From NCBI GenBank assembly GCA_902780505.1, contig CACZFN010000017.1, positions 88,368-152,367 of the forward strand: a stretch of DNA of 64,000 nucleotides, written 5' to 3'. A model generated the notes under the pieces. The model ran no database searches. It saw only the letters and a list, made by a program, of their open reading frames with translations, and had not been told where the DNA came from. Within the stretch, counting starts at the first letter, position 1. The number at the start of each line of letters is the position of its first letter. This document shows positions 42,612 to 59,416 of this stretch, piece by piece. The position numbers and the translations under genes were made by a program. This DNA is from an uncultured Ruminococcus sp. GTDB taxonomy: Bacteria > Bacillota > Clostridia > Oscillospirales > Ruminococcaceae.

Positions 42612-42685
42612 TTAACGCCCTCCGATAAATCAAAGGACGCATTGACGGAAATAAGAGTCAATACGCCCCGTAAGTCGTAAATCTA

Positions 42686-43186: not shown

Positions 43187-43207
43187 TTTTATCTGTCCTT
43201 TCTTTTA

Positions 43208-44044
43208 TTATGTATTCTGTATAAGAAAATCAAGCCATTTAAGCAGGTATTCCTTGACAAGGTGAACACCGTCCGTAGAAGCTTCTTCGGGCAGATATCC
43301 GTTTGCATCAGCAAGTGCCGAACCTACATCAAGAAACTCTACCCCACAGTTATCTGCCGCCGCCTTTACAGCAACATTAAAGCGTCTGACATTTTCATTT
43401 GTCCACGGCTCACCCTCTGATTCCTTGGAAGCCGTGATCGGGATTATCGACTGAATATATATCTTTGCATCAGGCTGTTTCTCTTTAATGGCATTTATCA
43501 GTTCTTCATATTCCGCCTGGAAGTTTTCCACATAAGGCCAGCCTATCTCGTTTATACCAAACATCACATATACTCTGCCAAACTGGTGCTGTGCAAGGGC
43601 ATCTGAAACATTGCCCATATTTCCGTTATCAAGTGTTATATTTTTTTCGTCAAGTGCAGAGGATACATTAAGCCCTGTTGCACAGTAGAAAGTAGCAAGC
43701 GGCTTACCCGAATTCATAGAAAGCCCGACAGTTCTTGAGTCCCCCACAAAGCAGGCGTCTGCAAAATCGTCCGAATCTTTCGTTACAGGCTGGGGCGCCG
43801 ATGAATCATCACTGCTGCTGTCATCATTCTTTACAACATCCTCTTTATTCTTATCTGCCGAAATCACAGAAGAACTTTCATCAGCAGAATTACTGCTGTT
43901 ATCCCCTGTATCTGTTTCAAGGCTGACAGAAGAAAGTATCAGCCACACAAAAACCATTATTGCCGCCAAAACGCAGAAAACAGATATTACATTTTGCTGG
44001 ATCCTTGCCCTGTTAGCGGGCGAAGGGGCTTTCTGCTCAGCCAT
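43208..44044 (-). CDS. Membrane-anchored SGNH/GDSL hydrolase
   Basis: 278 residues: short cytoplasmic N-terminus, membrane helix (about 19-40), Ser/Asp-rich linker (45-95), then an SGNH domain with CFVGDSRTVGL (Ser block), MFGINEIGW (Asn block) and STDGVHL (Asp/His block). First gene of the acylation operon. It may remove or transfer acyl groups on the same surface polymer that MBOAT and DHHW proteins modify. GAGGTC lies before the ATG. Confidence 0.88.
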   Translation of the reverse strand: MAEQKAPSPANRARIQQNVISVFCVLAAIMVFVWLILSSVSLETDTGDNSSNSADESSSVISADKNKEDVVKNDDSSSDDSSAPQPVTKDSDDFADACFVGDSRTVGLSMNSGKPLATFYCATGLNVSSALDEKNITLDNGNMGNVSDALAQHQFGRVYVMFGINEIGWPYVENFQAEYEELINAIKEKQPDAKIYIQSIIPITASKESEGEPWTNENVRRFNVAVKAAADNCGVEFLDVGSALADANGYLPEEASTDGVHLVKEYLLKWLDFLIQNT

Positions 44045-44435: not shown

Positions 44436-44476
44436 CCAGCTTTATATGCGCGGGCGCTGAACTCAAATAACAAAAA

Positions 44477-44507
44477 GACACTTCTGCCGTGATACGGCAA
44501 AAGTGTC
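44477..44507 (-). terminator. Terminator of the ABC operon; recurrent 31-bp hairpin, copy 2
   Basis: On the minus strand GACACTTTTGCC...GGCAGAAGTGTC is followed by T5. Same hairpin as at 21375-21405, with matching downstream bases. Confidence 0.8.
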
Positions 44508-44587
44508 TTGATAAATACTTCTTTATTGCACCCGCGCTTAAAGAGCAGAGGTGCCTTTGAAAAGCATTCTTGCAAACTGTAGTGCGA

Positions 44588-45622
44588 TCAGATACCTGTG
44601 ATACCCGAACGCTCAACACCCTCAATGAAGTATCTTTGCAGGAATACATACATAATAAGTATTGGCGTGATAGAGAGTATACAACCAGCTTCGAGCCATA
44701 CTATCATCTGCCTTATACCTACCTGCTGACCTGCAAACAACTCCTGAATAAGAGTAGAGTCAAGGTTTTTGAGCATAAGTGCAACAGTATCATTTCTTGT
44801 AAAGTATGAAGATGAGATATAGAAGTCATTCCAGTACCATACGATAGCGAAAAGGAATACTGTAAGGAATGAAGTTTTCGCATTAGGGATCATGACCTGA
44901 ACATAAGTTCTGAGCGGTCCGCAGCCGTCAAGGTATGCAGCATCTTCAAGTTCCTTTGGCAGTCCTCTGAAGAACTGACGGAAGATGTAGATGAACAGGC
45001 CGGCTCTTATACCATTTGCAAAGAGTGCAGGCAGGTACATTGTAAGCGGGCTGTTGATAAGTGACTCACCGCCCTTGAGAACCGTTATCCAGCCGAATGA
45101 ATACTGCATGAACAGCGGTATAGTGATGATCTGCGGTGGAACGATGATCATAAGTGTTACTATTGCGAAAAGTATGTTTTTGCCCTTGAACTTAAATCTT
45201 GCAAAGCCATAGCCTGTTATCGAACAGGATACGACCTCCAGAACGGAAGCGATAAGGTTAAGTAAAACCGTATTGAGCGCTGTTTCCGTAAAGTTCATTA
45301 TCTTCCATACGTCCTTGATATTATCAAGGGTGAAGCTCTTGGGCAGCCAGATGATCGACGGATCGTTCATCTGTTCATCAGGTCTGAATGCTGTTGAGAT
45401 CATAAAGATCATAGGGTAGAGTATGATAAAGCTAAGACCGAAAAGAATAAGGAATCTGAATATAGGCCAGATAGAGTCGATCGCAGCCTTACGTCTGTTA
45501 TATCTTATCTGATCGGGGGTAAGGTATTTTTCTATACCCTCCTCTTTCATTTTCTTCAGACGTTCTTTTCTTGCCTTTTTACACTCTTTTTCAAACTGTT
45601 TTTCTTCCTTTTTAGTTGCCAA
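44588..45622 (-). CDS. Carbohydrate ABC transporter permease (MalG/AraQ type), pair 2
   Basis: 344 residues. A charged cytoplasmic N-terminus of about 50 residues (Lys/Glu-rich, coiled-coil-like), then six membrane helices and the EAA loop ELEDAAYLDGCGPLRTYVQV that docks the ATPase. Ends IEGVERSGITGI, close to the usual terminal motif of MalG-type permeases. The long charged N-terminus is unusual. Last gene of the operon, 14 bp after its partner. It should form a heterodimer with the 45637-46701 product. Substrate unknown, probably an oligosaccharide. Confidence 0.93.
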   Translation of the reverse strand: MATKKEEKQFEKECKKARKERLKKMKEEGIEKYLTPDQIRYNRRKAAIDSIWPIFRFLILFGLSFIILYPMIFMISTAFRPDEQMNDPSIIWLPKSFTLDNIKDVWKIMNFTETALNTVLLNLIASVLEVVSCSITGYGFARFKFKGKNILFAIVTLMIIVPPQIITIPLFMQYSFGWITVLKGGESLINSPLTMYLPALFANGIRAGLFIYIFRQFFRGLPKELEDAAYLDGCGPLRTYVQVMIPNAKTSFLTVFLFAIVWYWNDFYISSSYFTRNDTVALMLKNLDSTLIQELFAGQQVGIRQMIVWLEAGCILSITPILIMYVFLQRYFIEGVERSGITGI

Positions 45623-45636
45623 TTTACTCCACCCCC

Positions 45637-46701
45637 TTACTCAACTTCATAGTATACGATCTTGTTTACAATGATAACAACGATACCAAGTACCACGCCG
45701 ACTATTGCGAAGTACGCCCAGGCCATTGCTGCCATCATGCCATGCTCCCAGCTCGAAGACTTAGTAAGTACGAGCAGCATGACGTCGTTAGACGGATCAA
45801 CGAAGGAGTCAACGACTGTGTAAACGATAGATGCAAGTATCATAGGGCTTATGTAAGGGATAGTGATCTTCCAGAAATACTCCCATGCTGTAGCACCCTC
45901 CATATTAGCAGCTTCCTTAGCTGATGTGGGGATACCCTGTAATGCCGAGAGGAACAGGAGGATCTGTATACCCGAGTTCCATACGAGGTTCATGATATCA
46001 CTCGTTACCGAGCTTATTACCTCTGTCAGAGAATCGCTGATGTTATAAACGCCTAAGAAATTGAGCAGCTCGTCAACGAGGTTTGCTTCAAACATTGAGC
46101 TGAACTGTTCAGAACCGCCTGCGTAACCGCCTGTGGACATATTACCGTTGATAATATCTATAACAGGACCGGTAGCAATAATAACCGGGAGGAAGAATAC
46201 TGCTCTTGCGAAAGTTCTTCCCTTGAACTTCTGGTTGAGGATGACCGCGATAAATATTGAGAATACAAGGATAAGAGGAGTTTTGAGTGCTGTATCCTTG
46301 AGCATATTTACAAGTGCGGGGGAATAGTCAACGTCTGTTCTGAAAGCGTCTATGTAGTTTTTAAGGCCTACCCATTCAAGCTGCATCTCGCCGTCAACAG
46401 GCTGAGTTTTGTTGAACGAGTATATAAACGATTCAATAAGCGGCATTATGAAGAAGTATATAGTACCTATTGCCCAGAGAGCTATAAACCCATAGCCATA
46501 GAGTGCTTTTCTTCTTTCATAGGGGATCTTTCTTCCCTTCTGCTTGACAGGGGCTGAGCCTGCAAGCTTTGCCTCAGTTTCTTCCGTGTTCGTTGTTTCA
46601 GGTTCTGAGGCATCATTAGTTTCCGTTGCAGCAGCTTCTTCAACAACTTCTTCTGCTGTTTCAAGAACTTCCTGCTCCTGCATATTTTCCATTTCACTCA
46701 T
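45637..46701 (-). CDS. Sugar ABC transporter permease (MalF/UgpA type), pair 2
   Basis: 354 residues. An acidic Glu/Thr/Ala-rich cytoplasmic N-terminus (1-55) precedes six membrane helices. A ~60-residue extracellular insert follows helix 3 (NGNMSTGGYAGGSEQFSS and onwards). EAA loop: SAKEAANMEGATAWEYFWKI. Its ATG overlaps the TAA of the DUF5696 gene by one base, so translation is coupled. Partner of the 44588 permease. The acidic N-terminus here and the basic one on the partner might pair (inference). Confidence 0.93.
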   Translation of the reverse strand: MSEMENMQEQEVLETAEEVVEEAAATETNDASEPETTNTEETEAKLAGSAPVKQKGRKIPYERRKALYGYGFIALWAIGTIYFFIMPLIESFIYSFNKTQPVDGEMQLEWVGLKNYIDAFRTDVDYSPALVNMLKDTALKTPLILVFSIFIAVILNQKFKGRTFARAVFFLPVIIATGPVIDIINGNMSTGGYAGGSEQFSSMFEANLVDELLNFLGVYNISDSLTEVISSVTSDIMNLVWNSGIQILLFLSALQGIPTSAKEAANMEGATAWEYFWKITIPYISPMILASIVYTVVDSFVDPSNDVMLLVLTKSSSWEHGMMAAMAWAYFAIVGVVLGIVVIIVNKIVYYEVE

Positions 46702-49130
46702 TAGCCGTTTGAACCCCCTTCACTTAAAGCTGGCGACAGATCGTAAGTCGTACCGTCCACCGTTGCGGTATATGCTTTAAGATTTACTCTTACCACGACA
46801 TCCTTGCTGCCGTCTGTATAAGTTGTCTTTAGCTCGTTACCGTCGGAAGAACGTTCATACTTCTTGATCGTCATATCACTCACACCTGAAAGTATCTGCT
46901 TTGTAAGCTCGTACTCCTTAGCTGCGTGAGGTACCCAGCCTTCATAATTTGCATAGTAAAGCTCATCGTAATCCGTATCTGCAAGCACTGATGAATCCTC
47001 ATATATCATATCATAGTGGATATTAGAGCCTGCCGCCAAGCTCAGCATAAACATTTCGTCGCTGTTGGAGCTTGCGTTTATCGGTGTACCCGCATACGGA
47101 ACATACCCGTGAATTACCATCTGATAGAACGGAATATCATAATCCGTAACATTAAAGCCGCTTGAGTATACAGGCACATTTGTTATATTTGATGCAAACG
47201 GAAGAACATAAGCATTTGTAGCATCTGTAATAACGCCGCCCATTTCCTCCTTAGCCTTCTTGTAGCCTTCAATAATAGTATTCATGGTCTTATCCCTGCT
47301 TGAAGTATTCTTTGAGGAGAAGTCACTTGAAAGCTTATAGGAGAAATCACCGAAGCCGATATTCTCTATACTCTCGTCCTTATAGCTCGATATCATTTCA
47401 TCAAAGACATCATTATACCTTGAAGGCGAGAGCAGTGCAGGAGATACGCCGACTTCTGCAACACCGAATGCGTAGGAATATTTGCTCTGTCTTGAATAAG
47501 CATTTGATATTCTTATCGCTGTGCTTGTAAGTGTCATATACCCCCACGAGCTTGAATCCATTGTATTGTTGTTCATCGAGGGGTATACCTTCACGCCGTC
47601 GGTTGAAAGAACATCCTTAAAGTCCTTGTCGCCGCCGAGCGTACCCGAAGCCTTAGCTTTGGTAGAGATCTTATTTGTGATAGACTTATTTGTCCAGTCA
47701 TTATAGTCGATTATCATATCGTCTATTTGCTGTTCTTTAAGCTTATCAATGATCTCCCCTGCCTGCTTAAAGCCTGTTATCTCAGTTTTAAGGTCAAAGG
47801 GAAGGCCTAAGATAGACGTCTGCTTCAAAACACCACCGTAGAAGTCAACATAAAGAGGAGTCTTGTTAGCCTCTGTTTTCTTTTCAAGCCCCTTGTTTTC
47901 AACAAGGTAGTTCCTGTAGACCTCAGCGCACTGTGCGTAATTCACCTGTTCGCCGTCTTCATTTGATATAGGATAGTACCTTACGCCGAATCTTTCGGTC
48001 TTGATGCTTCCCTTTTCAAAAACCGTAAGCCTGTTTGTAGAGTCACCGCTCATATAAAACTGGTCTGTGCTTCTTGCAGTAAATGTGAAGTTCACATTAT
48101 TGTAAGCCTGCTTGTTCTGACCTGTCACCTGAGCGTTGCAGTATACAAAGGAATCGCCTTCAGTCGCGATCATTACAAGCCCGTCAGATCCTTTGACAGT
48201 TGCCGCAACAGGCATATAAGCCTGCTGAACAACTCTCGGTGCGGAGAGTGGTACAGGGGTATAATCCCTGCCGTAGATCACCTGTTCATAGTCAGCGTAG
48301 TTTGACTTGCCGTTATTATAGTTTATAATTGCACCGCTGCCGTCTGGGACTATCATATAGCCGTCTATTGCAGTTCCGTCGATATCTGTTGCCGACTGCG
48401 CGCCGAACATAGGCGCCATTGATATCTGTGTTATTACCTTACCGTCTATAGCATTCGTATCAGGCTCGACGATATCCTTAGTATCAACATAGATATAAAG
48501 TCCCTTATCATCAAGCTCGTAATGTACGGGAACGGTAAAGCCGCCGTTTGATTTTGTGAACTTGTAAGTAGCAACAAGTCCCTTTGAGTTAGTCTTATAC
48601 TTCACCTTTGCCTTTGAGGTAACGGAGTATACGTCCGTTGTGTTCCTCTTGCTCTGCAAAAGGTCTGCATACTGAACGACAAGTCCCGAAGCAACCTGTT
48701 TTCTCTGGGCGGTCTTCATCATTCTGCCCTTAGCCTCGTCAACGATAGTTGCATCGCCGAATGCATTTATCGGGCTTGACCACCAGAACTGCTTTGAAGC
48801 CTTTACGTAAAGCGCTACCCTTTCATTTTCTTCATCCGCGTAGAGTATGAAGTTATCATTTTCGGCAGCAACCTCACAGCTTTCAAGTGCAATTGCTTCT
48901 TCGTCGGTAATAAGGGGTTCAAGGTCATCAGACTTTTCTTCCTTTTCTTCCTTTTCTTCCTTATCGTCCTTGCTGTCTTCACCGCCTGCATCTTCAGCAG
49001 ATGTATCCGCCGCAGCTGCCGCTGCTGCATCATCTGCTTCATCAGATGAAGCGACTACCGAACCCAGAGGCATCAGCATTGTAAGAACTAACGCAAAAAC
49101 TATTGCCTTTTTATAATTTCTGTTATGCAT
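46701..49130 (-). CDS. DUF5696 secreted protein
   Basis: 809 residues with a signal peptide (hydrophobic core 8-22, cleavage after VVAS) and a strongly acidic, low-complexity Asp/Glu/Lys/Ala linker (30-75). The rest is a large globular domain of the DUF5696 type, with beta-rich N-terminal half and a C-terminal half that reads like a TIM-barrel or glycoside-hydrolase-like fold (DDMIIDYNDWTN, GVKVYPSMNNNTMD, NIGFGDFSYKLSSDF, VPVYSSGFNVTDYDIPFYQMVI). I infer a surface enzyme or receptor for the transported carbohydrate. No catalytic residues can be assigned with confidence. Eighth of ten genes. Confidence 0.8.
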   Translation of the reverse strand: MHNRNYKKAIVFALVLTMLMPLGSVVASSDEADDAAAAAAADTSAEDAGGEDSKDDKEEKEEKEEKSDDLEPLITDEEAIALESCEVAAENDNFILYADEENERVALYVKASKQFWWSSPINAFGDATIVDEAKGRMMKTAQRKQVASGLVVQYADLLQSKRNTTDVYSVTSKAKVKYKTNSKGLVATYKFTKSNGGFTVPVHYELDDKGLYIYVDTKDIVEPDTNAIDGKVITQISMAPMFGAQSATDIDGTAIDGYMIVPDGSGAIINYNNGKSNYADYEQVIYGRDYTPVPLSAPRVVQQAYMPVAATVKGSDGLVMIATEGDSFVYCNAQVTGQNKQAYNNVNFTFTARSTDQFYMSGDSTNRLTVFEKGSIKTERFGVRYYPISNEDGEQVNYAQCAEVYRNYLVENKGLEKKTEANKTPLYVDFYGGVLKQTSILGLPFDLKTEITGFKQAGEIIDKLKEQQIDDMIIDYNDWTNKSITNKISTKAKASGTLGGDKDFKDVLSTDGVKVYPSMNNNTMDSSSWGYMTLTSTAIRISNAYSRQSKYSYAFGVAEVGVSPALLSPSRYNDVFDEMISSYKDESIENIGFGDFSYKLSSDFSSKNTSSRDKTMNTIIEGYKKAKEEMGGVITDATNAYVLPFASNITNVPVYSSGFNVTDYDIPFYQMVIHGYVPYAGTPINASSNSDEMFMLSLAAGSNIHYDMIYEDSSVLADTDYDELYYANYEGWVPHAAKEYELTKQILSGVSDMTIKKYERSSDGNELKTTYTDGSKDVVVRVNLKAYTATVDGTTYDLSPALSEGGSNG

Positions 49131-49155
49131 TTAATTTACACCACCGTTTCTAAAG

Positions 49156-49785
49156 TTAGCCTCTGATCCTGTAAAGAATTTCCGTATAGATCTGATAGAT
49201 GAATACATATAACTGCTGGAAAAGTGAGATAAGCAGCACTGCAAGGAAAAGTATCAGGAGCATTACGATCACCGTACCCACCATTGAAACAAGTGTCTTA
49301 CCGAATGAATACTGGTGTGCTGCACGCATAGCCTGCACCATAAGTATCACTGACCAGCCAAGTCCCAGCCAGGAAATTGCTGTTATCCAGATCGATTCAT
49401 CTTTTATAAGTACGTTTGAAAGTATGACCGATAAAAACGTACACACTATATAAGGAACGAGCGCGTAAGCCGAGTAGATAAAGATCCTTTTGAATGTACC
49501 TTCACCGTCGAACAGTGTACACAGCGCCCAGTTGCCTACTACCCATGTTATAAAGTATACTACCGACTGAACCAGAAGGGGAACAACGTTGAATACTTTA
49601 ACATAGTTTTCATTATAGGCAAATCCCGTAAGTCTGTGGTCAACCACCTGTGCGATAAAGAGCAATACAACTATCGCTATCGAAACAGGTATCGAACCCT
49701 TCTTTTTCCACCTGAGATCCTCAAAGCCTTCAACGGGGTGGAAAATGCAATGCTTGAGCCAACCTATGGTTGAATATTCATACAT
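49156..49785 (-). CDS. YIP1-family membrane protein
   Basis: 209 residues with five membrane helices (about 34-52, 65-90, 98-120, 128-152, 168-195), the YIP1/Yip1-domain layout with a short N-terminal cytoplasmic segment. GGGAGGGAA lies before the ATG. Between the NHL protein and DUF5696 genes in one operon with gaps under 30 bp. Bacterial YIP1 proteins have no established function; here it may be a membrane scaffold for the transporter. Confidence 0.82.
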   Translation of the reverse strand: MYEYSTIGWLKHCIFHPVEGFEDLRWKKKGSIPVSIAIVVLLFIAQVVDHRLTGFAYNENYVKVFNVVPLLVQSVVYFITWVVGNWALCTLFDGEGTFKRIFIYSAYALVPYIVCTFLSVILSNVLIKDESIWITAISWLGLGWSVILMVQAMRAAHQYSFGKTLVSMVGTVIVMLLILFLAVLLISLFQQLYVFIYQIYTEILYRIRG

Positions 49786-49800
49786 ACAAGTTTCCCTCCC

Positions 49801-51408
49801 TTAAATTCTCTCACGCTCGTGGATAACGATTATACCCTTATTTATAAGTATCTTTCTTACTATAAGGAGGATTATCAGTACCGCGATTATGATGATTATT
49901 GCTGTAAAGTGATCCCTGAGGAAATCTTCTCTTGCATACTTGAATGCCTTATCGTAGTCATCTCTGTCATATGCAAGCTTAAAGTAGTCAAGAGCCTCGT
50001 TATATCTTTCCTGATTAAGTGAAGCCTTGCCCATTCCGACATATGCGAGTGTATAAAGGCCATCTCTGTCAAGAACGTTATTCCAGTAAGGAACAGCCTC
50101 TACATACTTACCTTCGTCATAAAGCTCAACTGCCTTATGGACCTGCTGGCCGAAAGTAGTTGTCGTAAACACTGTTATATCATTCTTGGCACCGTCTATT
50201 ACATAGACATTTTCACCGAGAGTTTCAACGGCATTAGGCTGTGAGAAAGAACCTCTCTGGTCAGCAGTTGAAGTCTTGGTGCCGAAGATACAGATAAGGT
50301 TTGCATTCTTATCGTACTGGAACACACGGCCTGTTTCAAAGTCAAGGACATTCATACGCCCCTGTCTGTCGACCACGATATCGGTAAGCATTATGTTATG
50401 CTTTTTGTTCTGTACCGAGTCCCATACGGCATCTGTGATATCGCCGAATTTATACTCGTTACCTGTATTATTGTTCCAGATATTATAGCCTGCGGAGTTA
50501 AGCTTCTTGACCGCGTCTGTCGAGGTATTGCCCTTTTCGGTTACGGTATAGATAAAGCCTTCGCGGTCTATATCGAAGTTGTTGTACTCAGAAGGAACGT
50601 TTCTTTCCATAGCGTTTATCTGAGCATTGGAAGCGAACTTCCTCCAGATAGTCTGTGCGATTACCTTAGCAGTAACTTCAACACGGTTAGCGCCGTAGAA
50701 GCCTGTAAAGGAACCGTCCCTTGAAAACTGTACCGCACCTGTATTTACAGAAGTAACAACAGCATACACGTTTTCAGCGTTATCTGCTATTACCTTTGAA
50801 GGGAGGAATGTCGACTGAGTGTAGAGTGCCTCCTCAGGCTTGGTATATTCAAGGATAAGTTCAAGAGTATTCTGTACTGTAAGCTTAGCCTTTACTACTC
50901 TTGCATTCTTGTTATCTGCTATATAAACGATCTTTTCGTTTGTATATGCACTTGTTTTCACGTAGATACCCATAGGATCCTGGAAATTTGAAAGCCCTGT
51001 TTCGGCATCAACGTTTATCTCACTGTTGCCGCTGACGCCATAATACACGCCGCGGAGTTTGAAATCCTCGTTTACTCTGATTATTCTGTTATTGCCCGTA
51101 TCAGCTATCCAGAATTCCCTTGCATCATCATCACAGAACAGATCCTTGGCACCAGAGAGGGTTATTACAGCGTCCTCACTTACGAAGTAAGGGCTTGAGG
51201 GATCCCTCAGCTGTGCAAGACCGATCTCCTCGCCTGTGATCGTTTCGGTTATTCTGTATGCGCTCTGTGAGGGGATAGGCTCCTCCCACGCATCATAGCT
51301 ATATGAATTGTACGGTTCATCAGCAAATGCCGTGATCGTCATGACCGAGCAAAGCGAGGCTGTCAAAGCAAGAGTAAGGATGCGTTTCATCTTTTTTCTT
51401 ATTGACAT
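49801..51408 (-). CDS. NHL-repeat / TPR protein anchored by a C-terminal membrane helix
   Basis: 535 residues from ATG 51408 (AAGG eight bases upstream). Signal peptide 1-32 (ending ITAFAD), then six NHL/beta-propeller-type repeats (REFWIADTGNNRIIRVNEDF, KIVYIADNKNARVVKAKLT, FIYTVTEKG, MNVLDFETGRVFQYDKNAN, NVYVIDGAKNDITVFT), then two TPR units (about 415-480, ALDYFKLAYDRDDYDKAFKYA) and a C-terminal helix (about 500-522) followed by basic residues. The propeller is thus outside and tethered to the membrane. Likely a binding or scaffolding part of the uptake complex. Composition and order match no characterised transporter subunit I know. Confidence 0.85.
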   Translation of the reverse strand: MSIRKKMKRILTLALTASLCSVMTITAFADEPYNSYSYDAWEEPIPSQSAYRITETITGEEIGLAQLRDPSSPYFVSEDAVITLSGAKDLFCDDDAREFWIADTGNNRIIRVNEDFKLRGVYYGVSGNSEINVDAETGLSNFQDPMGIYVKTSAYTNEKIVYIADNKNARVVKAKLTVQNTLELILEYTKPEEALYTQSTFLPSKVIADNAENVYAVVTSVNTGAVQFSRDGSFTGFYGANRVEVTAKVIAQTIWRKFASNAQINAMERNVPSEYNNFDIDREGFIYTVTEKGNTSTDAVKKLNSAGYNIWNNNTGNEYKFGDITDAVWDSVQNKKHNIMLTDIVVDRQGRMNVLDFETGRVFQYDKNANLICIFGTKTSTADQRGSFSQPNAVETLGENVYVIDGAKNDITVFTTTTFGQQVHKAVELYDEGKYVEAVPYWNNVLDRDGLYTLAYVGMGKASLNQERYNEALDYFKLAYDRDDYDKAFKYAREDFLRDHFTAIIIIIAVLIILLIVRKILINKGIIVIHERERI

Positions 51409-51446
51409 ACGTTTCACCTTTTCCTTTTGATATTTGTCTTTTCAGC

Positions 51447-52343
51447 TTAGTCCTTGATACCCGAATTAGCCATTGTTTCCATAACGTTGCTCTGTGCAAC
51501 AAGGAATACAACGAGCGGCGGGATAAGAAGTACAACTGCCGCTGCATAAACAGCGCCCTGACGGGAAAGACCGGTCAATGAGATCTGCTGTACTATCGTA
51601 GGCAGAGTCTTGAGTTCTTCCGAGTAGATAAGAACACCGCCCTGCATATTCCAGGCGCCCTGGAATGCGAAGATTATCAGTGTCATGATCGCAGGCTTTG
51701 AGTTGGGGACAACTATCTGCCAGCATATCCTGAAAAGCCCTGCGCCGTCCATCTTTGCAGCCTCTATCATCGAGTCATGTATAGTTGACATACTCTGACG
51801 CATAAGGAACAGGCCGAGAGGAGTAGCGATATTGGGGAGGATAAGTGCGCCGTATGTATCTATCAGGCGAAGCTTTGAAAGCACGAGGAATGTCATAATC
51901 CAGGTTGCCTGAGAGGAGAACAGGAGGGCGGTAACAATTATCTTGTTAAGCACGCCGACACCGGGGAAACGGCACTTTGCAAGCACGAATGCCGCACAGC
52001 AGCACACAAAGAGGTTAGCCGCGCAGACAACTATCGTAATGAATACCGAGTTGAATATGTACCTTGAAAGCGGCACCCACATATTAGATGCGATATTTAC
52101 AAGGTCTGAGAAGTTTTTGAACGTAGGGTTGATAACATAAAGCTTAGGCGGGAATACGAACAGCTCCTCGATAGGCTTTATAGACTGTATCAGTGAATAA
52201 TACAGCGGGAAGAGCATAAACGAACCCAGCAGGCACAGGAAAATGAATATTGCGATATCGCCGCCGAGAGAACCGTTGACTTTCTTCTTTTTATCTTTTA
52301 CCTTCAGTTTCTCAATAGAAACCTTTTTCTTTTTTCTTGCCAT
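51447..52343 (-). CDS. Carbohydrate ABC transporter permease (MalG type), pair 1
   Basis: 298 residues with a basic Lys-rich N-terminus (1-22), six membrane helices and the EAA loop MIEAAKMDGAGLFRICWQIV. Ends TMANSGIKD, the usual MalG-type C-terminus. 18 bp after its MalF-type partner. Together they should form the first permease heterodimer, fed by the 974-residue binding protein upstream. Confidence 0.94.
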   Translation of the reverse strand: MARKKKKVSIEKLKVKDKKKKVNGSLGGDIAIFIFLCLLGSFMLFPLYYSLIQSIKPIEELFVFPPKLYVINPTFKNFSDLVNIASNMWVPLSRYIFNSVFITIVVCAANLFVCCCAAFVLAKCRFPGVGVLNKIIVTALLFSSQATWIMTFLVLSKLRLIDTYGALILPNIATPLGLFLMRQSMSTIHDSMIEAAKMDGAGLFRICWQIVVPNSKPAIMTLIIFAFQGAWNMQGGVLIYSEELKTLPTIVQQISLTGLSRQGAVYAAAVVLLIPPLVVFLVAQSNVMETMANSGIKD

Positions 52344-52361
52344 TTCGTATACTCACCTCCC

Positions 52362-53300
52362 TTAGTCAAGGTACTTCGACAGCAAGGAGTTTATGCCCTT
52401 ATTTGCCAGAAGCATTGCGGCAAACAGTACAAAGCATATTGCTGCGGAGTAGCCCATTTCAAAACGGATATAGCCATAGTCGGTAGCGTGGTTCATAATT
52501 GTGTGAGCCGCGTAGTCAGATGAAGGAAGACCTACGAGTGACTGACCGACAACACCTACTGTGAATGACGAGGATATCTGCAAAACAGCTGCAAAGAGGA
52601 GCTGAGGTCCCATTGAAGGGATAGTTATCATGAAAAGTTCCTGCCATCTGTTCTTTATACCCTCGATAGCGCCTGCTTCATACATTGACTTATCAATGTT
52701 CTGGAAGCCTGCACGAAGTGCAAGGAAGCCTGCGCCCATTGAGATCCACAGCTGAACTACTATGCAGACACCGAGTATATACTTAGTATCTGTAAGGAAC
52801 TGAACAGGCTGTGTAAAGATGCCGATATCCATAAGGACTGAGTTTATGTAGCCGTTAGCGTCGCCCGAAAGGATAAGCTGCCAGATTACGTAAACGGAAG
52901 TCGTCATAGAAGGTGCATAGAAAACGAATGTAAAGAATGTCTTCAGGAACGGGTGCATTTCATTTATAAGCCAAGCAAGTATAAAGCTCAGTATATAGGA
53001 GAAAGGTCCCGTAAACACCGCGAAGATAAGTGTATTTCTTATAGCTATAAGGAATACTTCATCATTCAGAAACAGTGTTTTGAAGTTTGAAAGCCCGACG
53101 ACCTTAGGTGTCTGAACCATATTGAAGTTCGTAAAGCCTATAGGAAGTGACATTACTATCGGAACTATCAGGAAGATCAAAAACAGTATCATAAAGGGAG
53201 CCATAAGACCATAGCACGCTTTATTGACTTTTACCATGTGCCACGTATAAGCCCATTTGCCGGCTTTATTCATTGGCACCTGTTCATTATTTTTAGCCAT
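52362..53300 (-). CDS. Sugar ABC transporter permease (MalF type), pair 1
   Basis: 312 residues, six membrane helices, EAA loop MYEAGAIEGIKNRWQELFMI, and the conserved FVFYAPSMTTSVYVIWQLI segment. 24 bp after the binding protein stop. Pairs with the 51447-52343 permease. The acidic/basic N-terminal extensions of pair 2 are absent here. Confidence 0.94.
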   Translation of the reverse strand: MAKNNEQVPMNKAGKWAYTWHMVKVNKACYGLMAPFMILFLIFLIVPIVMSLPIGFTNFNMVQTPKVVGLSNFKTLFLNDEVFLIAIRNTLIFAVFTGPFSYILSFILAWLINEMHPFLKTFFTFVFYAPSMTTSVYVIWQLILSGDANGYINSVLMDIGIFTQPVQFLTDTKYILGVCIVVQLWISMGAGFLALRAGFQNIDKSMYEAGAIEGIKNRWQELFMITIPSMGPQLLFAAVLQISSSFTVGVVGQSLVGLPSSDYAAHTIMNHATDYGYIRFEMGYSAAICFVLFAAMLLANKGINSLLSKYLD

Positions 53301-53324
53301 AAATTACCTACTCTCCTCCCTTTA

Positions 53325-56249
53325 TTACTTATAAACATCAAGGTCATCAAGCTTACGGGTGATCTCGTCGTTGATATCCTTATTGTACCAGAAGAGCGTA
53401 TCTCTTGCGTTATCAGCCTCGTTTACCACCTGTCTGAATGCGTTCATGATATTTCTTGTTACGCCGTAGGAAGCGGGGATTACAGGTATTTCCACCTGAG
53501 AATCGAGCTGTTCCTTGAGCAGAGCGTACTCAGAAGTTGTCCATGAAAGGTTTGCAAGTGCTTCAACGTTTGCTGTAGCGTAACGTCCCATTGTACCGAG
53601 GACAGCCTCAATATCCTGACCGTACTGTGTCTGGATATCCGTAGATGTGAACCACTTAGCGAAATCCCATGCGCCGTCAACGTCGGATGCCTTCTTAAAG
53701 ATAAGTATACCCGAACCTGCCGAGCTTGCAGCGTGGTTGATAGAGCCGTCCGGCTGGACAGTACCGGGAACAGGCTGGAAGCCCCAGCAGCCCTTGATCT
53801 CAGGGGCAGCCTTTGCGAGCTGGTTAGCAAAACCGTAGTTATTGATAACTATCGGCATATCGCCCATTCTGAAACGTGTAAATGCATCATATGTCTGTGA
53901 GAAGCTGTATGTTGTATAGAACTTTGTCCACTTATCGAAAGCGTTTACAGCTTCGGTTGTATCGAAGTTTGTCTTGGTCTGGTCTTCGTTATAGTAGTTT
54001 ACGCCCTGCTGGAGGAGGAGCATAGCAAATGTATTGCCTGCTTCTGTTGTAGCGGAGATCGCTGTAACGCCTGCCGAACCCATCTGAGCGAGGATAAGGC
54101 CGACCTCCATATAGTTACGCTGAAGTGCAGGGAGGACATCTATAAGACCGTCCCATGTTGTAAGATCTGTTGCGGGATCAATGTTATACTCAGAAAGGAT
54201 ATCCGAGCGGTAGAAAAGCATCGGGAAGTTCTGTTCAAGCGGCAGGCCGTATGTACCGCCGTTATACTGATACAGTACCATAGCATCCTTGGAGAAGTTC
54301 TTTGTCACCTCGTCATAGCCGTCAAGCTTTGACAGGTCAACAAGCACATCACGCGCCGCAAGCTGTATCGGGTAGTCACCGCCGATAAACATTGCTATAT
54401 CAGGGCCCTTGCCTGCGAATGTAGCTTCAACTATACCGCCGACAACGAGCTTTAAGTTTATCTTAGTCTTGGCATCAAGGTTATAGTCGTTATTGATAAG
54501 GTTTGTTACCACCTTGGCGTTATCTCTGCCCGTACCGATCCAGGCTGTCATAACGTCGCCGGAATCCTCGTCGATATCAGAGAGAGTATTATAATCCTCA
54601 AAGAAGGAACCTATGAACTTCGAGAAGCCATACGAAAGCGACTTGAAGAAGTTTGAGTCTGTTGATGTGAAGTCCTCGTCAGACGAGCAGATCTCGATAA
54701 GATCAACTTCAAGCGGCTGAGCGCGGTACTGTGATACCCATGAAGAAACCGCTGTGATATTATCCTTGATCTGTGACATCATAGAAGGTATTCTGTCAGG
54801 CTTATCAACACACTTATCAAGTATTATCGACATGGTTCTGAGCGTTACAGCTTCAGTACCGCCGGAACCGGAAAGCTCCTCGATCTTCTTCTGGGCATCT
54901 ATCAGCTGTTTGCTGTAGGTCTCAAAATCCTTTATACAATCAGGAAGAGCCTTGTCGATATTATAGTTATTGTATTCATCAGGTGAAGGACCTGTGATCT
55001 GTCTTATCTGTCTGTAATAGCTGTTTGTATTATAAACGATAGTATCGATCTCGTCCATTATCTCGCCTATCTCACCGGGTACAGCTTCAAGAGTAAGGGT
55101 ATTCTTACCGGATTCGAGATAGAAGTACATAGGATCATCACCAACGGAAGGTGCTGTAACAGTCCAGTCAGTATCATAGAAGAACTTGATCTGTTCAGCT
55201 TCCTGATAAGGCACCTTTCCATTTATATACAGGCGGCGGTTTGAATACATACCGCGCATCTGATCCTGTCTTGCCCTTATACCTATTTTATACCAGCCTG
55301 CACTGTCTACAGTAAACTCCCACGTTACAGCCTGAGTAGCTTGATTCCAGTTGCCCTGGCCGCCTATCGTGTTATACTTTTCCTTTGTAGGCGAGGAGCC
55401 GTTTGAGGAGGAAGTAAGATAGGAGGTATTATCAGATGTCGGGAACAAGGTCTTATCCGACTTATACTTGGCAAGCTCACCCTCAAGGGTTATCCTCTTG
55501 CCCGAAACGGAACCTGTATCGGGGCTTACGGATGAATAAGCGGGAAGTGCCTCGTGGTTATAGAACTTTAAGTATTCTACTGCGAACTGTGCCTTTTCAG
55601 AGTCGATCGTTACAGTATGCTTACCCGAATCAAAATAGAAATAAAGCGAATCGTTTGAAAGACCGTCTATATCCTCCAGATCCTTAGTCTGCCACATAAC
55701 GAGTTCTTTCTGTCCCGGGCGGATATCGTTACCCTTGGAGTTCGTTTCGATAACGCCCTCCTCCTTAGTATCGTTTATCCACACCTTGGGGAGTGTTATA
55801 CGCTCCGCCGTAGCGTAAGGACTCTGCCCGTCTATACGCAGGCCAAATTCAACGTCTGTTGTCGTTCCTTCAAGTGCTTCATAGCTTGCCTCCACACAGT
55901 AAAGGCCTGAAGTCTTGACATCGATATCAAACTCGACCTGACCTGTCTGGCTCGCCCATTTAAAGACGTCGTTCTTACCGTCAACGGTCTCGATACTATA
56001 GCTGATGCCCGAGTCTTCGACAGCTCTGAAGTCCTTTCCGTACACCGTGATCTCGTCGTTCGGACGTTCTGCGTCTTGATGTCTTTTCAGGTATGCGCTG
56101 TATGTATGTTCTCTCTTAGCCGCGTCTACCGCTTCAGCAGATGCTTCGGAAGCTGTCGAAGAATCCGCATATGCCGCAGGCACAAGAGAAAGCACAAGTG
56201 CCAAAGCCATAGCCGATGACGCTATACGTCTAAACCTTGTGTTTTTCAC
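53325..56249 (-). CDS. Giant extracellular solute-binding protein with two N-terminal beta ectodomains
   Basis: 974 residues, about twice the normal size. Signal peptide (cleavage near AYADSS) with no lipobox, so the protein is not lipid-anchored by sequence. Two carbohydrate-binding-module-like beta-sandwich domains follow: about 35-240 (VEFDIDVKTSGLYCVEASYE, LYFYFDSGKHTVTIDSEKAQ) and about 285-425 (VTWEFTVDSAGWYKIGIRAR, MYFYLESGKNTLTLEAVPGE), which share the same repeated motif order and so look duplicated. A helical linker (430-540) leads to a family-1 solute-binding domain (about 565-974; GKGPDIAMFIGGDYPIQL, NFPMLFYRSDILSEYNID, WDFAKWFTSTDIQ). It probably captures a complex glycan and delivers it to pair 1 and perhaps pair 2. 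Confidence 0.92.
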   Translation of the reverse strand: MKNTRFRRIASSAMALALVLSLVPAAYADSSTASEASAEAVDAAKREHTYSAYLKRHQDAERPNDEITVYGKDFRAVEDSGISYSIETVDGKNDVFKWASQTGQVEFDIDVKTSGLYCVEASYEALEGTTTDVEFGLRIDGQSPYATAERITLPKVWINDTKEEGVIETNSKGNDIRPGQKELVMWQTKDLEDIDGLSNDSLYFYFDSGKHTVTIDSEKAQFAVEYLKFYNHEALPAYSSVSPDTGSVSGKRITLEGELAKYKSDKTLFPTSDNTSYLTSSSNGSSPTKEKYNTIGGQGNWNQATQAVTWEFTVDSAGWYKIGIRARQDQMRGMYSNRRLYINGKVPYQEAEQIKFFYDTDWTVTAPSVGDDPMYFYLESGKNTLTLEAVPGEIGEIMDEIDTIVYNTNSYYRQIRQITGPSPDEYNNYNIDKALPDCIKDFETYSKQLIDAQKKIEELSGSGGTEAVTLRTMSIILDKCVDKPDRIPSMMSQIKDNITAVSSWVSQYRAQPLEVDLIEICSSDEDFTSTDSNFFKSLSYGFSKFIGSFFEDYNTLSDIDEDSGDVMTAWIGTGRDNAKVVTNLINNDYNLDAKTKINLKLVVGGIVEATFAGKGPDIAMFIGGDYPIQLAARDVLVDLSKLDGYDEVTKNFSKDAMVLYQYNGGTYGLPLEQNFPMLFYRSDILSEYNIDPATDLTTWDGLIDVLPALQRNYMEVGLILAQMGSAGVTAISATTEAGNTFAMLLLQQGVNYYNEDQTKTNFDTTEAVNAFDKWTKFYTTYSFSQTYDAFTRFRMGDMPIVINNYGFANQLAKAAPEIKGCWGFQPVPGTVQPDGSINHAASSAGSGILIFKKASDVDGAWDFAKWFTSTDIQTQYGQDIEAVLGTMGRYATANVEALANLSWTTSEYALLKEQLDSQVEIPVIPASYGVTRNIMNAFRQVVNEADNARDTLFWYNKDINDEITRKLDDLDVYK

Positions 56250-56351
56250 AATTTAGTCCACCTTTCTTACTGAATTTGCTGATATATTAAGGTATAAAAA
56301 ATCTATCCCGAAGCAGGGGAAGCCTCAGCATCTTGCCCCGCGTGTGAAACT

Positions 56352-57299
56352 CTATGACGGGGGTACTATTTTAATACCCGTACCCGCATCATCAAGTTCA
56401 ACCCTGACTTTATCGCCGCCTTTAAGACCGAGAGCCTCAAGCTGTTCCTTTGGTATCTGGAGTCTGCCCGATCTATCGAGGACTGCAAGTTCCTCATGCG
56501 TCTGTTCTTCTTCGCTTTCCGCCTTTTCAGAAAGCATATCGCCCATTTCATCAAGTTCAGCTGCATAGGAGCGTTTTCTTACTATTTCCGAGCTGGTCCG
56601 GCCGTCCCTTATAGCGACCACCCTGTCGATATGGTTTGCAAGCTTCACATCATGCGTAACTATCACGACGGTTATCCCCTCGGACTTATTAAGTTCTTTA
56701 AATATATCAAGTATCTTATTTGAAGTCTTGGTATCGACCGAGCCAGTCGGTTCATCAGCGAGCAGCAGCCTCGGCTTATTTGCGAGCGCTATAGCTATTG
56801 CCACCCTTTGCTGTTCACCGCCCGACATCTGGTCAAGCCTTGAATTCTTCCTATGTGCAAGCCCCACCTTTTCAAGAAGTTCGGATGCCCGTTTCTTTCT
56901 TTCCTTAGCGGAGGAGAGTATCATAGGCATTTCAACATTCTGCTGTGCAGTGAGGTAAGGGATAAGGTTCCTTGCATTATTCTGCCACACAAAGCCGACA
57001 GTTTCACGCTTATATATCATATAGTCCTTATCCGAAAACTTCAGCAGGTTCTTGCCGTCGATATAAAGGCTGCCCGCCGACGGTCTGTCAAGGCCGCCGA
57101 GCATATTGAGCAATGTTGATTTACCGCTGCCCGAATTACCGACGATCGCCATAAGCTCACCTTTTTTCACATCAAGGTCAAGCCCCTGCAGTGCGACGAC
57201 TTCGACTTCATCAGTCTTATATATCTTGACCAGGTTTTCACACCTTATCATATATTCGCCGTCATTATTGTGTTCATTCACGGTGATATCTTCATTCAA
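56352..57299 (-). CDS. LolD/MacB-type ABC ATPase with C-terminal AbrB-like domain
   Basis: 315 residues. ATPase: Walker A GNSGSGKST (54-62), Q loop FVWQNNARNLIPYLT, signature MSGGEQQRVAIAIAL, Walker B LLLADEPTGSVD, H-loop VIVTHD. The short LolD/MacB-type body is followed by an acidic linker (about 240-270) and a swapped-hairpin AbrB/SpoVT-like tail (271-315: VLDRSGRLQIPKEQLEALGL, then GGDKVRVEL). The AbrB fold normally binds DNA or forms dimers; here it may dimerise or link the ATPase to gene control. TTG start overlaps the preceding ATPase gene by 8 bp. Sugar importers normally use MalK/MsmX ATPases with a TOBE/OB tail, absent here. Confidence 0.92.
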   Translation of the reverse strand: MNEDITVNEHNNDGEYMIRCENLVKIYKTDEVEVVALQGLDLDVKKGELMAIVGNSGSGKSTLLNMLGGLDRPSAGSLYIDGKNLLKFSDKDYMIYKRETVGFVWQNNARNLIPYLTAQQNVEMPMILSSAKERKKRASELLEKVGLAHRKNSRLDQMSGGEQQRVAIAIALANKPRLLLADEPTGSVDTKTSNKILDIFKELNKSEGITVVIVTHDVKLANHIDRVVAIRDGRTSSEIVRKRSYAAELDEMGDMLSEKAESEEEQTHEELAVLDRSGRLQIPKEQLEALGLKGGDKVRVELDDAGTGIKIVPPS

Positions 57300-57990
57300 C
57301 TATCTCACCGTCCTCTAAAGTATAGACCTTATCCGCGATCTCCACCATACTGGGATCGTGGGTGGTCATTATTATCGTCATTTTATCCCTTGCGACAAGC
57401 TCTTTGAAAAGCTTTACAACGTGAAGCCCGGTTGCCGTATCAAGCTCGGCAGTAGGTTCATCGGCAAAGATTATCTTCGGTTCATGCGCTATAGCCCTTG
57501 CTATCGCAACCCTTTGCTGTTCACCGCCTGACATTTCGGGCGGCCTGTGGTGCATACGTTTGGAAAGGCCGACATTTTCGAGGACCTCCCTCACGCGCTT
57601 ATCGCGCTGTTTATAGGGGTACCCTGCAAGGCGCAGGCCGAATTCGACGTTTTCATAAGCCGTCATACCCGACATAAGCGCCACCGACTGGAACACAAAC
57701 GCCATCTGATACCGCCTGAGGTCGTCACGCTTAGCTTCGGAAAGCTCAGTGATATCGTCGCCGTCAAAGTACACGCCGCCTGTTGTAGGCTTATCAAGTG
57801 CGCCCATTATATTTATAAGTGTGGTTTTACCGCTGCCCGAGCGCCCCCTTAAAATAGTGAGTTTACCCTTTTCGATATCGGCATTTATGCCCTTTAGTGC
57901 GTGGACAACGCTGCCGTCACCTATTTTAAAATCACGCCCGACATTTTTCACGGAAAGAATGACATCCCGCGTATTATCTGCATTATCCAT
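57292..57990 (-). CDS. LolD/MacB-type ABC ATPase
   Basis: 232 residues from ATG 57990 (GAGGATAAGC upstream). Walker A GRSGSGKTT, Q loop FVFQSVALMSGMTAYENV, signature MSGGEQQRVAIARAI, Walker B IIFADEPTAELD, and TTHDPSMVEIADKVYTLEDG at the end. Typical LolD/MacB size with no extra domain. First gene of the operon. With the AbrB-tailed ATPase it could form a heterodimer. No FtsX-type permease, the normal partner of this class, is encoded in the operon, so these ATPases probably drive the sugar-type permeases. Confidence 0.93.
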   Translation of the reverse strand: MDNADNTRDVILSVKNVGRDFKIGDGSVVHALKGINADIEKGKLTILRGRSGSGKTTLINIMGALDKPTTGGVYFDGDDITELSEAKRDDLRRYQMAFVFQSVALMSGMTAYENVEFGLRLAGYPYKQRDKRVREVLENVGLSKRMHHRPPEMSGGEQQRVAIARAIAHEPKIIFADEPTAELDTATGLHVVKLFKELVARDKMTIIMTTHDPSMVEIADKVYTLEDGEIVE

Positions 57991-58562
57991 AAGCTTATCC
58001 TCAATACAAGCACAAAACACTCACGCCGTTTTCACATTATCATTATCAAAAAACGCCCTGTACCATATTATATAGGGCGCAAAAGCGGCAGAACTGCGCG
58101 CCTCACTTGTGCATTTTGCACATACGAAAGCGCCGCCTTGCACGATAACAAGATGTAGTGAATTTGTTCAAAAAACTATACGTAGCTTGTGTATTTTGAC
58201 TTACTTTTAGTCAATTTAATCAAAAAGACGGTATTAGCCTAATCATAATTATACCAATTCGCAAAGGTTTTGTCAAGATAACGTAAACGTTTTAGGTTTA
58301 ATTTTTTTGTGCAAATTTTGCCTTTGTGCATTTTGCATACTGTGTGCCCGTATTTTTGTGCAGGGTGCAAAAACTATTTAAACAAGTTTTCAAAGATTTA
58401 CAATTCAAACGGGCATTATAACGATTACAAGCAAATTATTTGCAGAAAATTTACAATTGCGAGGATAATTTCTTTCTTGTTTTCGACAAAAATCTTCGGG
58501 GACAGGCTGTAATATTCTTATAGCGAGATTTCATATTTTTATAAAGAGGGTGTTTTTTCCAT
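57991..58562. promoter_or_regulatory. Divergent control region between the ABC operon and spoIIA operon
   Basis: No gene is seen in these 572 bp. For the ABC operon (minus) TTGACA (58271-58276), 17 bp, TATAAT (58248-58253) is a perfect promoter; a palindrome GTAAACGTTTTA (58283-58294) lies six bases upstream of its -35 box. At 58417-58429 TATAACGATTACA shares its ACGATTACA half with the LacI operators at 4368 and 5796. For the plus strand a Spo0A box (TTCGACA, 58482-58488) lies 75 bp before spoIIAA. Confidence 0.75.
58482..58488 (+). promoter_or_regulatory. Spo0A box upstream of spoIIA
   Basis: TTTTCGACAAAA (core TTCGACA, reverse TGTCGAA) matches the Spo0A site exactly. A sigma-H-like -35 element (GCGAGGATAAT) lies 20 bp upstream at about 58459-58469; the matching -10 box is weak. 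Confidence 0.75.
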
Positions 58563-58922
58563 ATGATCCCAATTACAGAATACGACAGTGAGCGAAAGAT
58601 ACTGACAGCACTTCTGCAAGGCGAGATAGACCACCACTGCGCAGGAGAGATACGCAGGTGTATCGACATAGCGATAGACAAATACTCCCCAGAGCTTTTA
58701 GCGCTTGACTTTTCGGGGGTGACATTCATGGACAGTTCGGGGATAGGGCTTGTTATGGGCAGATACAAGCTTATGAAGGAAACAGGCGGCGAAACGATAG
58801 TTTTAAACCCACGCGATGACATAAGGAAGCTTATGGAGCTTGCATCACTCGGGCGGCTGACAAAAATTGCATACACTGCACATTCAGCAGCTAAAGCAAG
58901 CAGCGGCAGGAAGGTACCGTAA
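58563..58922 (+). CDS. spoIIAA: Anti-sigma F factor antagonist
   Basis: 119 residues, STAS domain. The phosphorylation loop LDFSGVTFMDSSGIGLVMGR carries the target serine (Ser58/59). In Bacillus, dephosphorylated SpoIIAA binds SpoIIAB and frees sigma F in the forespore. First gene of spoIIAA-spoIIAB-sigF, in the classic order. AGAGGG before the ATG and a Spo0A box upstream support control by Spo0A. The phosphatase SpoIIE is not in the window. Confidence 0.95.
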   Translation: MIPITEYDSERKILTALLQGEIDHHCAGEIRRCIDIAIDKYSPELLALDFSGVTFMDSSGIGLVMGRYKLMKETGGETIVLNPRDDIRKLMELASLGRLTKIAYTAHSAAKASSGRKVP

Positions 58923-58975
58923 CAAGCGCACAAAACCGAAAGGAGGAGGTACCCCCCGAAGGTACCGAAAAGACA

Positions 58976-59416
58976 ATGAAAAGAGAAGTAAAAAACAAAA
59001 TGAAGCTAAGCTTTATCTCACGCTCTGAAAACGAAGGGCTTTCGAGGATCGCGGTAAGCGCGTTTTTAAGCAGTGCCGGGGCTGATGCAGGGGTGATAGC
59101 ACAGCTGAAAACCGCTGTTTCGGAGGGTGTCACGAATGCTATAGTACACGGCTACAGAGGGATCACCGGAATAGTCACGCTTGAATGTACGATATACGAA
59201 AACGGGCTTATCAGAACGGTGATACGTGACAAAGGTACAGGCATAGAGGACATTGAAAAAGCCATGGAACCGCTTTACACCACCGCCCCCGAGGAGGAAC
59301 GCGCAGGGCTTGGCTTTGCGATAATGAAAAGCTTTTGTGACAGGATAAGGGTAAGAAGTGTGCCGGGCAAAGGCACAACTGTCACCCTTGACAAATACAT
59401 AGCAGAAAATGGATAA
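58976..59416 (+). CDS. spoIIAB: Anti-sigma F factor (serine kinase)
   Basis: 146 residues, GHKL ATPase fold: N box SEGVTNAIVHGY, G1 box VIRDKGTGIED, and AGLGFAIMKSF. It binds and blocks sigma F and phosphorylates SpoIIAA. The best ribosome site (AGGAGGAGG) is about 30 bases from the ATG; a nearer GAAGG is weak, so translation may be low or start at the Met codon at 59000. The stop overlaps sigF by 8 bp. Confidence 0.95.
   Translation: MKREVKNKMKLSFISRSENEGLSRIAVSAFLSSAGADAGVIAQLKTAVSEGVTNAIVHGYRGITGIVTLECTIYENGLIRTVIRDKGTGIEDIEKAMEPLYTTAPEEERAGLGFAIMKSFCDRIRVRSVPGKGTTVTLDKYIAENG

Follow-up and report, generated by a model that had tools for sequence, protein, structure and literature searches.

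An uncultured Ruminococcus sp. carries, on the minus strand of a 64,000-nucleotide stretch of its genome (the window; contig CACZFN010000017.1, positions 88,368 to 152,367), a run of ten genes encoding two ATPases of the LolD/MacB class (ATP1 and ATP2), a 974-residue binding protein (SBP), a MalF/MalG-type permease pair (P1f and P1g), an NHL/TPR protein, a YIP1 protein, a DUF5696 protein and a second MalF/MalG-type pair (P2f and P2g). An earlier reading made from the letters of this DNA alone (the sequence-only reading) had proposed that the two ATPases drive both permease heterodimers. We find instead that the last eight genes are a module found again, its gene order unchanged, in Clostridia and some Bacilli, that the ATPases are a lineage-specific addition to this module, and that their FtsX-type partner exists in trans. 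We favor, with fair confidence, the view that two systems share one transcript: an eight-part importer and the ATPases of a split transporter resembling MacB and YknXYZ.

An eight-gene module with constant gene order

We surveyed loci around DUF5696 in the order and class (L036-L069) and in the family (L072-L110), and around P1f in named genomes (L149-L228), annotating them with profiles built from the window proteins and their relatives. The three sets overlap, since named loci recur among the other genomes, and their counts are not additive; the class loci were picked chiefly for a high DUF5696 score. (Two further fetched stretches, L070 and L071, contain just a short DUF5696 relative.) The full set of eight parts is found at 30 of 34 loci in the class/order set, 37 of 39 in the family set and 70 of 80 in the named set; most misses fall at contig ends, and L039 is without P2g. 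In the search for this gene order in other genomes, which the sequence-only reading had suggested, the order SBP-P1f-P1g-NHL-YIP1-DUF5696-P2f-P2g and its strand are constant in 140 of the 141 loci tested, the sole exception (L047) being a stretch with parts of two modules. Two permease pairs are found in all 137 full loci across the three overlapping sets, and full modules are present in Ruminococcus, other Oscillospiraceae, Paenibacillus and Gracilibacillus. A fusion of NHL with YIP1 is seen in 17 of 30 class/order, 5 of 37 family and 6 of 70 named full loci.

ATPases of the ATP1/ATP2 kind stand beside the module in none of the 30 class/order full loci, in 11 of the 37 family loci and in 29 of the 70 named loci. 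The DUF5696 protein itself is widespread: counting weak matches, it is found in 119 of 391 class genomes and 57 of 148 family genomes, strongly (E < 1e-100) in 45 of the latter and weakly in the other 12.

Among 103 neighboring open reading frames (ORFs) scanned out of 182 eligible (186 before four longer than 1100 aa were removed), there are GH10 proteins in 6 cases, GH43 proteins in 4, extra sugar-binding proteins in 11 and AraC regulators in 6; this set covers class-level loci and some from Paenibacillus and Gracilibacillus, with the window's own neighbors left out. The importer reading of the module is well supported, and the earlier description of a composite glycan uptake set with two MalF/MalG pairs and unusual surface proteins holds up. 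Its substrates may be plant-type glycans, judging from the GH10 and GH43 neighbors in some relatives. No publication on the module was found in the open-licence PMC literature, in keeping with the earlier claim that the gene set is undescribed; in two R. bicirculans papers (PMC5320581, PMC4867992), YIP1, NHL, DUF5696, FtsX and MsmX did not turn up in a search by term.

Two loci deserve separate mention. At two of the three loci of one order-level genome (G186), a very long ORF takes the place of P2g after P2f (1611 aa at L038 5368-10203 and 1864 aa at L039 2680-8274). L163, on a contig titled Alistipes sp., carries a full module whose P1f has 67% identity to the query; this metagenome-assembled genome (MAG) is probably mislabelled.

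The ATPase pair and a permease in trans

The sequence-only reading was right that the operon contains no FtsX-like permease; such a permease does exist elsewhere in the genome. A double-FtsX protein of about 1000 residues is encoded together with a membrane fusion protein (MFP) on contig C3, and no ATP1 or ATP2 orthologue was found in the 16 kb around these two genes (L132). In the family sample of 148 genomes, where the best 15 first-look candidates for ATP2 (threshold E <= 1e-80) or the best 5 for FtsX (E <= 1e-60) were scored per genome, ATP2 orthologues occur in 23 genomes and the double-FtsX permease of about 950 aa in 25, including all 23 with ATP2 (Fisher 6e-25, kinship ignored). The remaining two FtsX genomes also have ATP2: in G459 a contig end truncates the gene (L098), and G481 carries the pair (L237). 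The 45 family genomes with strong DUF5696 comprise 15 with both FtsX and ATP2, 30 with neither, and no discordant case.

Where the ATPase genes are found depends on whether the module is present. Among nine carriers that lack the module, MFP, FtsX, ATP1 and ATP2 stand in one run in eight (L112-L115, L117-L119, L237), and in the ninth (G397) the run is cut by contig ends. Where module and ATP2 occur together, all 17 genomes (16 family hits and G370) have ATP2 ahead of SBP in the same orientation, mostly with fewer than 140 nt between the two and with at most about 600 nt (G424); ATP1 is seen as well in 15 of these, the other two being cut by contig ends. In all 16 double carriers that were fetched (L132-L146, L148), no ATP1 or ATP2 orthologue was found in the 8-16 kb around FtsX. 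Conversely, FtsX was not found in any of six module genomes without the pair, with all candidates scored. No double-FtsX was found in R. callidus and R. flavefaciens ND2009, which have a full module and no pair, or in R. flavefaciens 007c, where just P1f and P1g are visible at the locus. In the window's genome the ATPases most likely drive another membrane transporter, with its remaining components encoded elsewhere. In one double carrier (G438, L148) the double-FtsX gene is in two pieces (26-1855 and 1858-2916), from a frameshift or an assembly error.

The motor of the sugar permeases is probably MsmX. Of 40 module genomes, 39 encode an MsmX-type ATPase; they include all 37 of good quality, and the one without it is 75% complete. 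A test based on its absence is not decisive, since every good-quality genome in this set has it. In the window's genome it lies on contig C21 (closest solved chains 7x0q and MsmX 6yir), which holds the genome's single OB_MalK match (G000:C21); none of the ten operon proteins has one. The MsmX-type gene immediately precedes the module in L051; in L092 it lies 2 kb before it on the same strand, and in L123, L124, L126 and L183 it lies 3-5 kb before ATP1. Multitask ATPases are known for sugar importers, and a four-residue multitask motif has been tested (PMC7658222); D77, R104 and E110 of that motif are kept in the window genome's MsmX, with Q at 154.

EAA loops are retained by all four permeases. 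By alignment (a narrow EAA pattern misses 29 of 78 P2f proteins), the acid of the EAA loop is kept in 156 of 156 P1f, 151 of 153 P1g, 150 of 150 P2f and 146 of 147 P2g homologues, and the G at +6 in 156, 152, 149 and 146, respectively; the second position is A, S or G in just 126 of 150 P2f homologues. The consensus is nearly identical in modules with and without the ATPase pair. On the ATPase side, the motifs of the contact region from Q-loop to signature are kept in both FtsX-linked and module-linked orthologues; its identity to the window proteins is 58-59% in the former versus 74% in the latter, a drop that for ATP1 is in line with the rest of the protein.

These data bear directly on the proposal that ATP1 and ATP2 drive both MalF/MalG heterodimers in place of MsmX. 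It has some appeal: two ATPases match two permease pairs, the pair heads the module whenever both occur in the family (17 of 17), and a strong promoter stands before ATP1 with none that good before SBP in such loci. However, most modules have no such ATPase alongside, ATP2 was not found without the FtsX permease (23 of 23), the pair sits beside FtsX and MFP in eight of nine module-less carriers, the EAA loops are alike with and without it, the contact region retains the motifs of the FtsX-linked orthologues, and MsmX is almost always there. From conservation, co-occurrence, EAA loops and contact regions we judge this proposal very unlikely.

A probable single transcription unit and its links to the transporter

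The ten ORFs described by the sequence-only reading are all in place on the minus strand, from 58020 to 44588. For ATP1, an ATG at 57990 behind a GAGG, judged by eye, is preferable to the mechanical GTG start at 58020. Neighboring genes overlap twice, by 8 nt and by 1 nt, or stand 14-29 nt apart, the one larger gap being that of 102 nt between ATP2 and SBP. Because a promoter matching the consensus at 12 of 12 positions (TTGACA-17-TATAAT, 58248..58276, minus strand) precedes the first gene and an intrinsic terminator (44475..44509, minus strand; a 16-pair stem, 3-nt loop and T tract) follows the last, the ten genes likely form one transcription unit. As to an internal terminator splitting the unit, which would have counted against the earlier description, the sole intergenic terminator-like site on the operon strand is a 7-pair hairpin at 56328-56308, inside the 102-nt gap, and such sites are not enriched (11 observed versus 11.8 expected from shuffles).

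Each of 38 upstream stretches, the window included and some sharing a genome, has a 12/12 promoter with a spacing of 17 or 18 no more than 400 nt from ATP1. Of 103 loci lacking the pair, 41 have a 12/12 promoter in the 400 nt preceding SBP, and 59 reach a score of 11 or 12; of 44 loci carrying the pair, none scores 12 and 3 score 11 in the 200 nt preceding SBP. Because the strong promoter of pair-bearing loci precedes ATP1 and not SBP, the pair most likely lies inside the module's transcription unit. We also considered that the unlinked MFP-FtsX genes share ATP1's promoter type and rejected this, as the best promoter-like sites upstream of MFP score 8-10 of 12 (26 rows, one without usable sequence). 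Immediately upstream of the -35 box, at 58276-58296, lies a palindrome-like AAACGTTT, possibly a LacI-type operator; by eye, 10 of these 38 stretches, not all from separate genomes, have this octamer no further than 20 nt from the -35 box.

A few genomes carry module and transporter close together. R. bicirculans 80/3 has ATP1, ATP2, the eight module genes, MFP and FtsX in a row, with 258 nt between P2g and MFP (L152/L236), and in two family MAGs MFP and FtsX lie downstream of P2g (in L134, and in L135 after one intervening ORF). In three related Paenibacillus (L217, L220, L227; extended as L229-L231), a run ATP1-MFP-FtsX-ATP2 lies about 5 kb upstream of the module; the stretch between holds a GH10-like protein (by eye), an opposite-strand ORF and an additional binding protein (by eye). 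The stretches seen of Gracilibacillus and P. harenae have module and transporter apart, each transporter with its own ATPases. Linkage thus arose more than once, yet is not general outside the family. Paenibacillus genomes carry up to four copies of the transporter. In Paenibacillus sp. BK033 there are three further ATP1-MFP-FtsX-ATP2 copies (L235, L238, L239), and no module part was recognized in the 17-18 kb fetched around them.

One might then ask whether the linkage means anything. The ATPase genes may have landed at the head of the operon in one ancestor and been kept there for expression, the two systems being functionally untied. Either system occurs alone in many genomes, MFP-FtsX is unlinked in most double carriers, and the four-gene transporter of Bacilli keeps its own ATPases, lies apart from the module in Gracilibacillus and P. 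harenae, and is multiplied in Paenibacillus. This explanation is strained by the places where the transporter itself sits near the module: close downstream in R. bicirculans and the two MAGs, and about 5 kb upstream in the three related Paenibacillus, with the GH10-like neighbor and the opposite-strand ORF between. We consider accidental linkage unlikely.

Several observations weigh against our preferred reading of an importer and a separate FtsX transporter. The ATPases stand behind a 12/12 promoter in 38 of 38 stretches and the MFP-FtsX genes behind sites of 8-10 of 12, a mismatch that fits one complex poorly and hints that the ATPases also serve the importer. Module and ATPases are linked in every family genome that has both, and this constancy therefore suggests a shared job, which our reading leaves open. 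The contact region of ATP2 differs by 15 points between the FtsX-linked and module-linked contexts versus 9-11 for the rest of the protein, the window genome's MsmX is without K154 of the tested motif (PMC7658222), and the scoring of the best 15 or best 5 candidates leaves the absences of ATP2 and FtsX not watertight.

The promoter mismatch and the constant linkage would be explained if the pair were a shared motor, serving FtsX in trans and part-time also the module permeases or a YIP1 complex, and the precedent of multitask ATPases in sugar importers (PMC7658222) lends this some plausibility. On the other hand, a second docking mode leaves no clear sign in the sequence, and FtsX-linked orthologues are found in module-less genomes as well, making a shared motor improbable in our estimation.

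Gene products and a proposed mechanism

The family labels that the sequence-only reading gave to the ten proteins agree with Pfam and NCBIfam. ATP1 (57292..57990, minus strand, as are all ten) and ATP2 (56352..57299) both have LolD as their top NCBIfam model, at 238 and 201 bits, below the LolD cut-off of 308; the closest solved chains to ATP1 are 5xu1, MJ0796, MacB and LolD. ATP2 ends in a MazE/AbrB-like domain (PF04014, residues 275-313, 25.8 bits against a cut-off of 24.7). A Paenibacillus ATP2 orthologue beside FtsX (L220:715-1602) also has such a C-terminal domain, by eye, and the ATP2 of G487 (L109) is just 240 aa long and without it.

All four permeases have BPD_transp_1 or UgpA/UgpE/GlcU-type matches in Pfam or NCBIfam. 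P1f (52362..53300) has no Pfam match and NCBIfam UgpA/PotB/GlcT matches below cut-off, P1g (51447..52343) matches PF00528 with 41 bits, P2f (45637..46701) matches it with 21 bits, below cut-off, and is UgpA-like in NCBIfam, and P2g (44588..45622) matches PF00528 with 61 bits. The closest named relative of P1f, at 95% identity, comes from a Ruminococcus MAG, records of the window's own genome possibly having been omitted; this points to a Ruminococcus-like bacterium of gut or rumen as the probable source. The extracellular NHL/TPR protein (49801..51417) has NHL and TPR matches and, by hydropathy, a C-terminal membrane helix from about residue 507, and YIP1 (49156..49785; PF04893, 67 bits) is an integral membrane protein.

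The SBP (53325..56249; SBP_bac_8 at residues 610-883) gave an AlphaFold2 model with a mean predicted local distance difference test score (pLDDT) of 85.9, in which a signal peptide is followed by two beta-sandwich regions (about 67-390), a helical linker (394-509) and a sugar-binding domain (514-969). All 50 matches listed by Foldseek are sugar- or solute-binding proteins or fusions to maltose-binding protein, and the top PDB matches include binders of beta-1,2-gluco-, cello- and malto-oligosaccharides. The protein is thus modeled as an oligosaccharide-binding fold behind two beta-sandwich domains.

The secreted DUF5696 protein (46701..49130; PF18952, 522 bits) is predicted to have a GH129-like fold. 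Its AlphaFold2 model (pLDDT 87.2) matches chains of ZgGH129/anhydrogalactosidase and NagBb as the top 11 Foldseek hits, with E-values of 8.6e-27 to 5e-20, a probability of 1.00, template modeling scores of 0.67-0.75 by target length and a match of near whole length; we take NagBb to be a GH129 member. GH129-type enzymes were also recovered weakly by a DUF5696 profile search; a match of the DUF5696 profile to PDB entry 6een was dismissed as a repeat artefact. Identity to the GH129 enzymes is 10-12%. Of two candidate catalytic residues, D603 is conserved as Asp in all 55 near homologues and in 31 of 40 diverse ones, and D663 in 49 of 55 and 34 of 40. By a crude pattern, a lipobox-like motif is found in 22 of 152 binding proteins and 15 of 147 DUF5696 proteins; therefore, most do not look like classic lipoproteins.

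The mechanism that we propose joins the observed gene content, conservation, co-occurrence, genome positions and promoter-like sites to steps that we infer, namely the pairing of ATPases with permeases, NHL-YIP1 acting as a scaffold, what DUF5696 does, the substrate and any coupling of the two systems. Genes 3-10 would form the eight-part oligosaccharide importer. The SBP, with its domains resembling carbohydrate-binding modules, would capture oligosaccharides, DUF5696 would trim or hold them, and an NHL/TPR-YIP1 membrane scaffold may gather these surface parts, while the two MalF/MalG-type heterodimers would import the sugars, energized by the multitask MsmX-type ATPase from contig C21. Genes 1-2 would supply the ATPases of the MacB/YknXYZ-like transporter whose MFP and double-FtsX are encoded on contig C3; one double-FtsX permease and two different ATPases would fit as a heteromeric unit. 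This transporter may serve the same feeding program as the importer.

YIP1 is a candidate for a natural bridge between the two systems because, by analogy, the Yip1 protein YknW modulates YknXYZ assembly in Bacillus, as reported in PMC4338810 and PMC4887032. YIP1 is also kept where the double-FtsX was not found, and must therefore have a role in the importer alone. A bolder version would place importer and MacB-like transporter (MFP, double-FtsX and two ATPases) in a single twelve-part machine around the NHL-YIP1 scaffold, with MsmX powering import and the FtsX motor working outside; its proposed job there is to load, release or turn over glycan or binding protein. We offer this as a tentative possibility. 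Our preferred reading keeps the two systems distinct.

Compared with known systems, the module shares with CUT1 importers that use MsmX or MsmK, such as B. subtilis AraNPQ-MsmX, the MalF/MalG pair with EAA loops, the sugar-binding protein and an ATPase encoded elsewhere; it differs in its two permease pairs per operon, its NHL-YIP1 and DUF5696 parts and the beta-sandwich domains added to the 974-aa binding protein. A CUT1 importer of the MalFGK2 type has in its operon a MalK/MsmX ATPase with an OB domain and a single permease pair, neither of which is found here. All four kinds of part in B. subtilis YknWXYZ (Yip1, MFP, LolD-like ATPase and FtsX) are present in the window's genome. They differ in being split between loci, with two different ATPases and one double-FtsX, and here YIP1 belongs to the sugar module, even where no such FtsX was found. 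With MacAB and LolCDE the transporter shares the ATPase class and an FtsX-type permease, and with MacAB also the MFP; in contrast to these systems, permease and ATPases are unlinked in the window's genome, and the host, Ruminococcus-like by relatedness, is presumably Gram-positive.

The operon's neighbors, identified by eye, are presumably genes like spoIIAA, spoIIAB and a sporulation sigma factor on the plus strand (58563-60065) and, downstream (41196-44044), genes that we take to encode an AlgI/MBOAT O-acetyltransferase, a small lipoprotein and an SGNH hydrolase.

The two permease pairs, the Yip1 scaffold and the GH129-like protein are additions to the known design of sugar importers, and the analysis matches ATPases to permeases in a way that can be tested. 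As the split FtsX system illustrates, inferring ATPase-permease partners from gene order can mislead. The marker DUF5696 is strong in 45 of 148 family genomes and the module is present in other Clostridia, Paenibacillus and Gracilibacillus too, yet no publication on it was found in the open-licence PMC literature.

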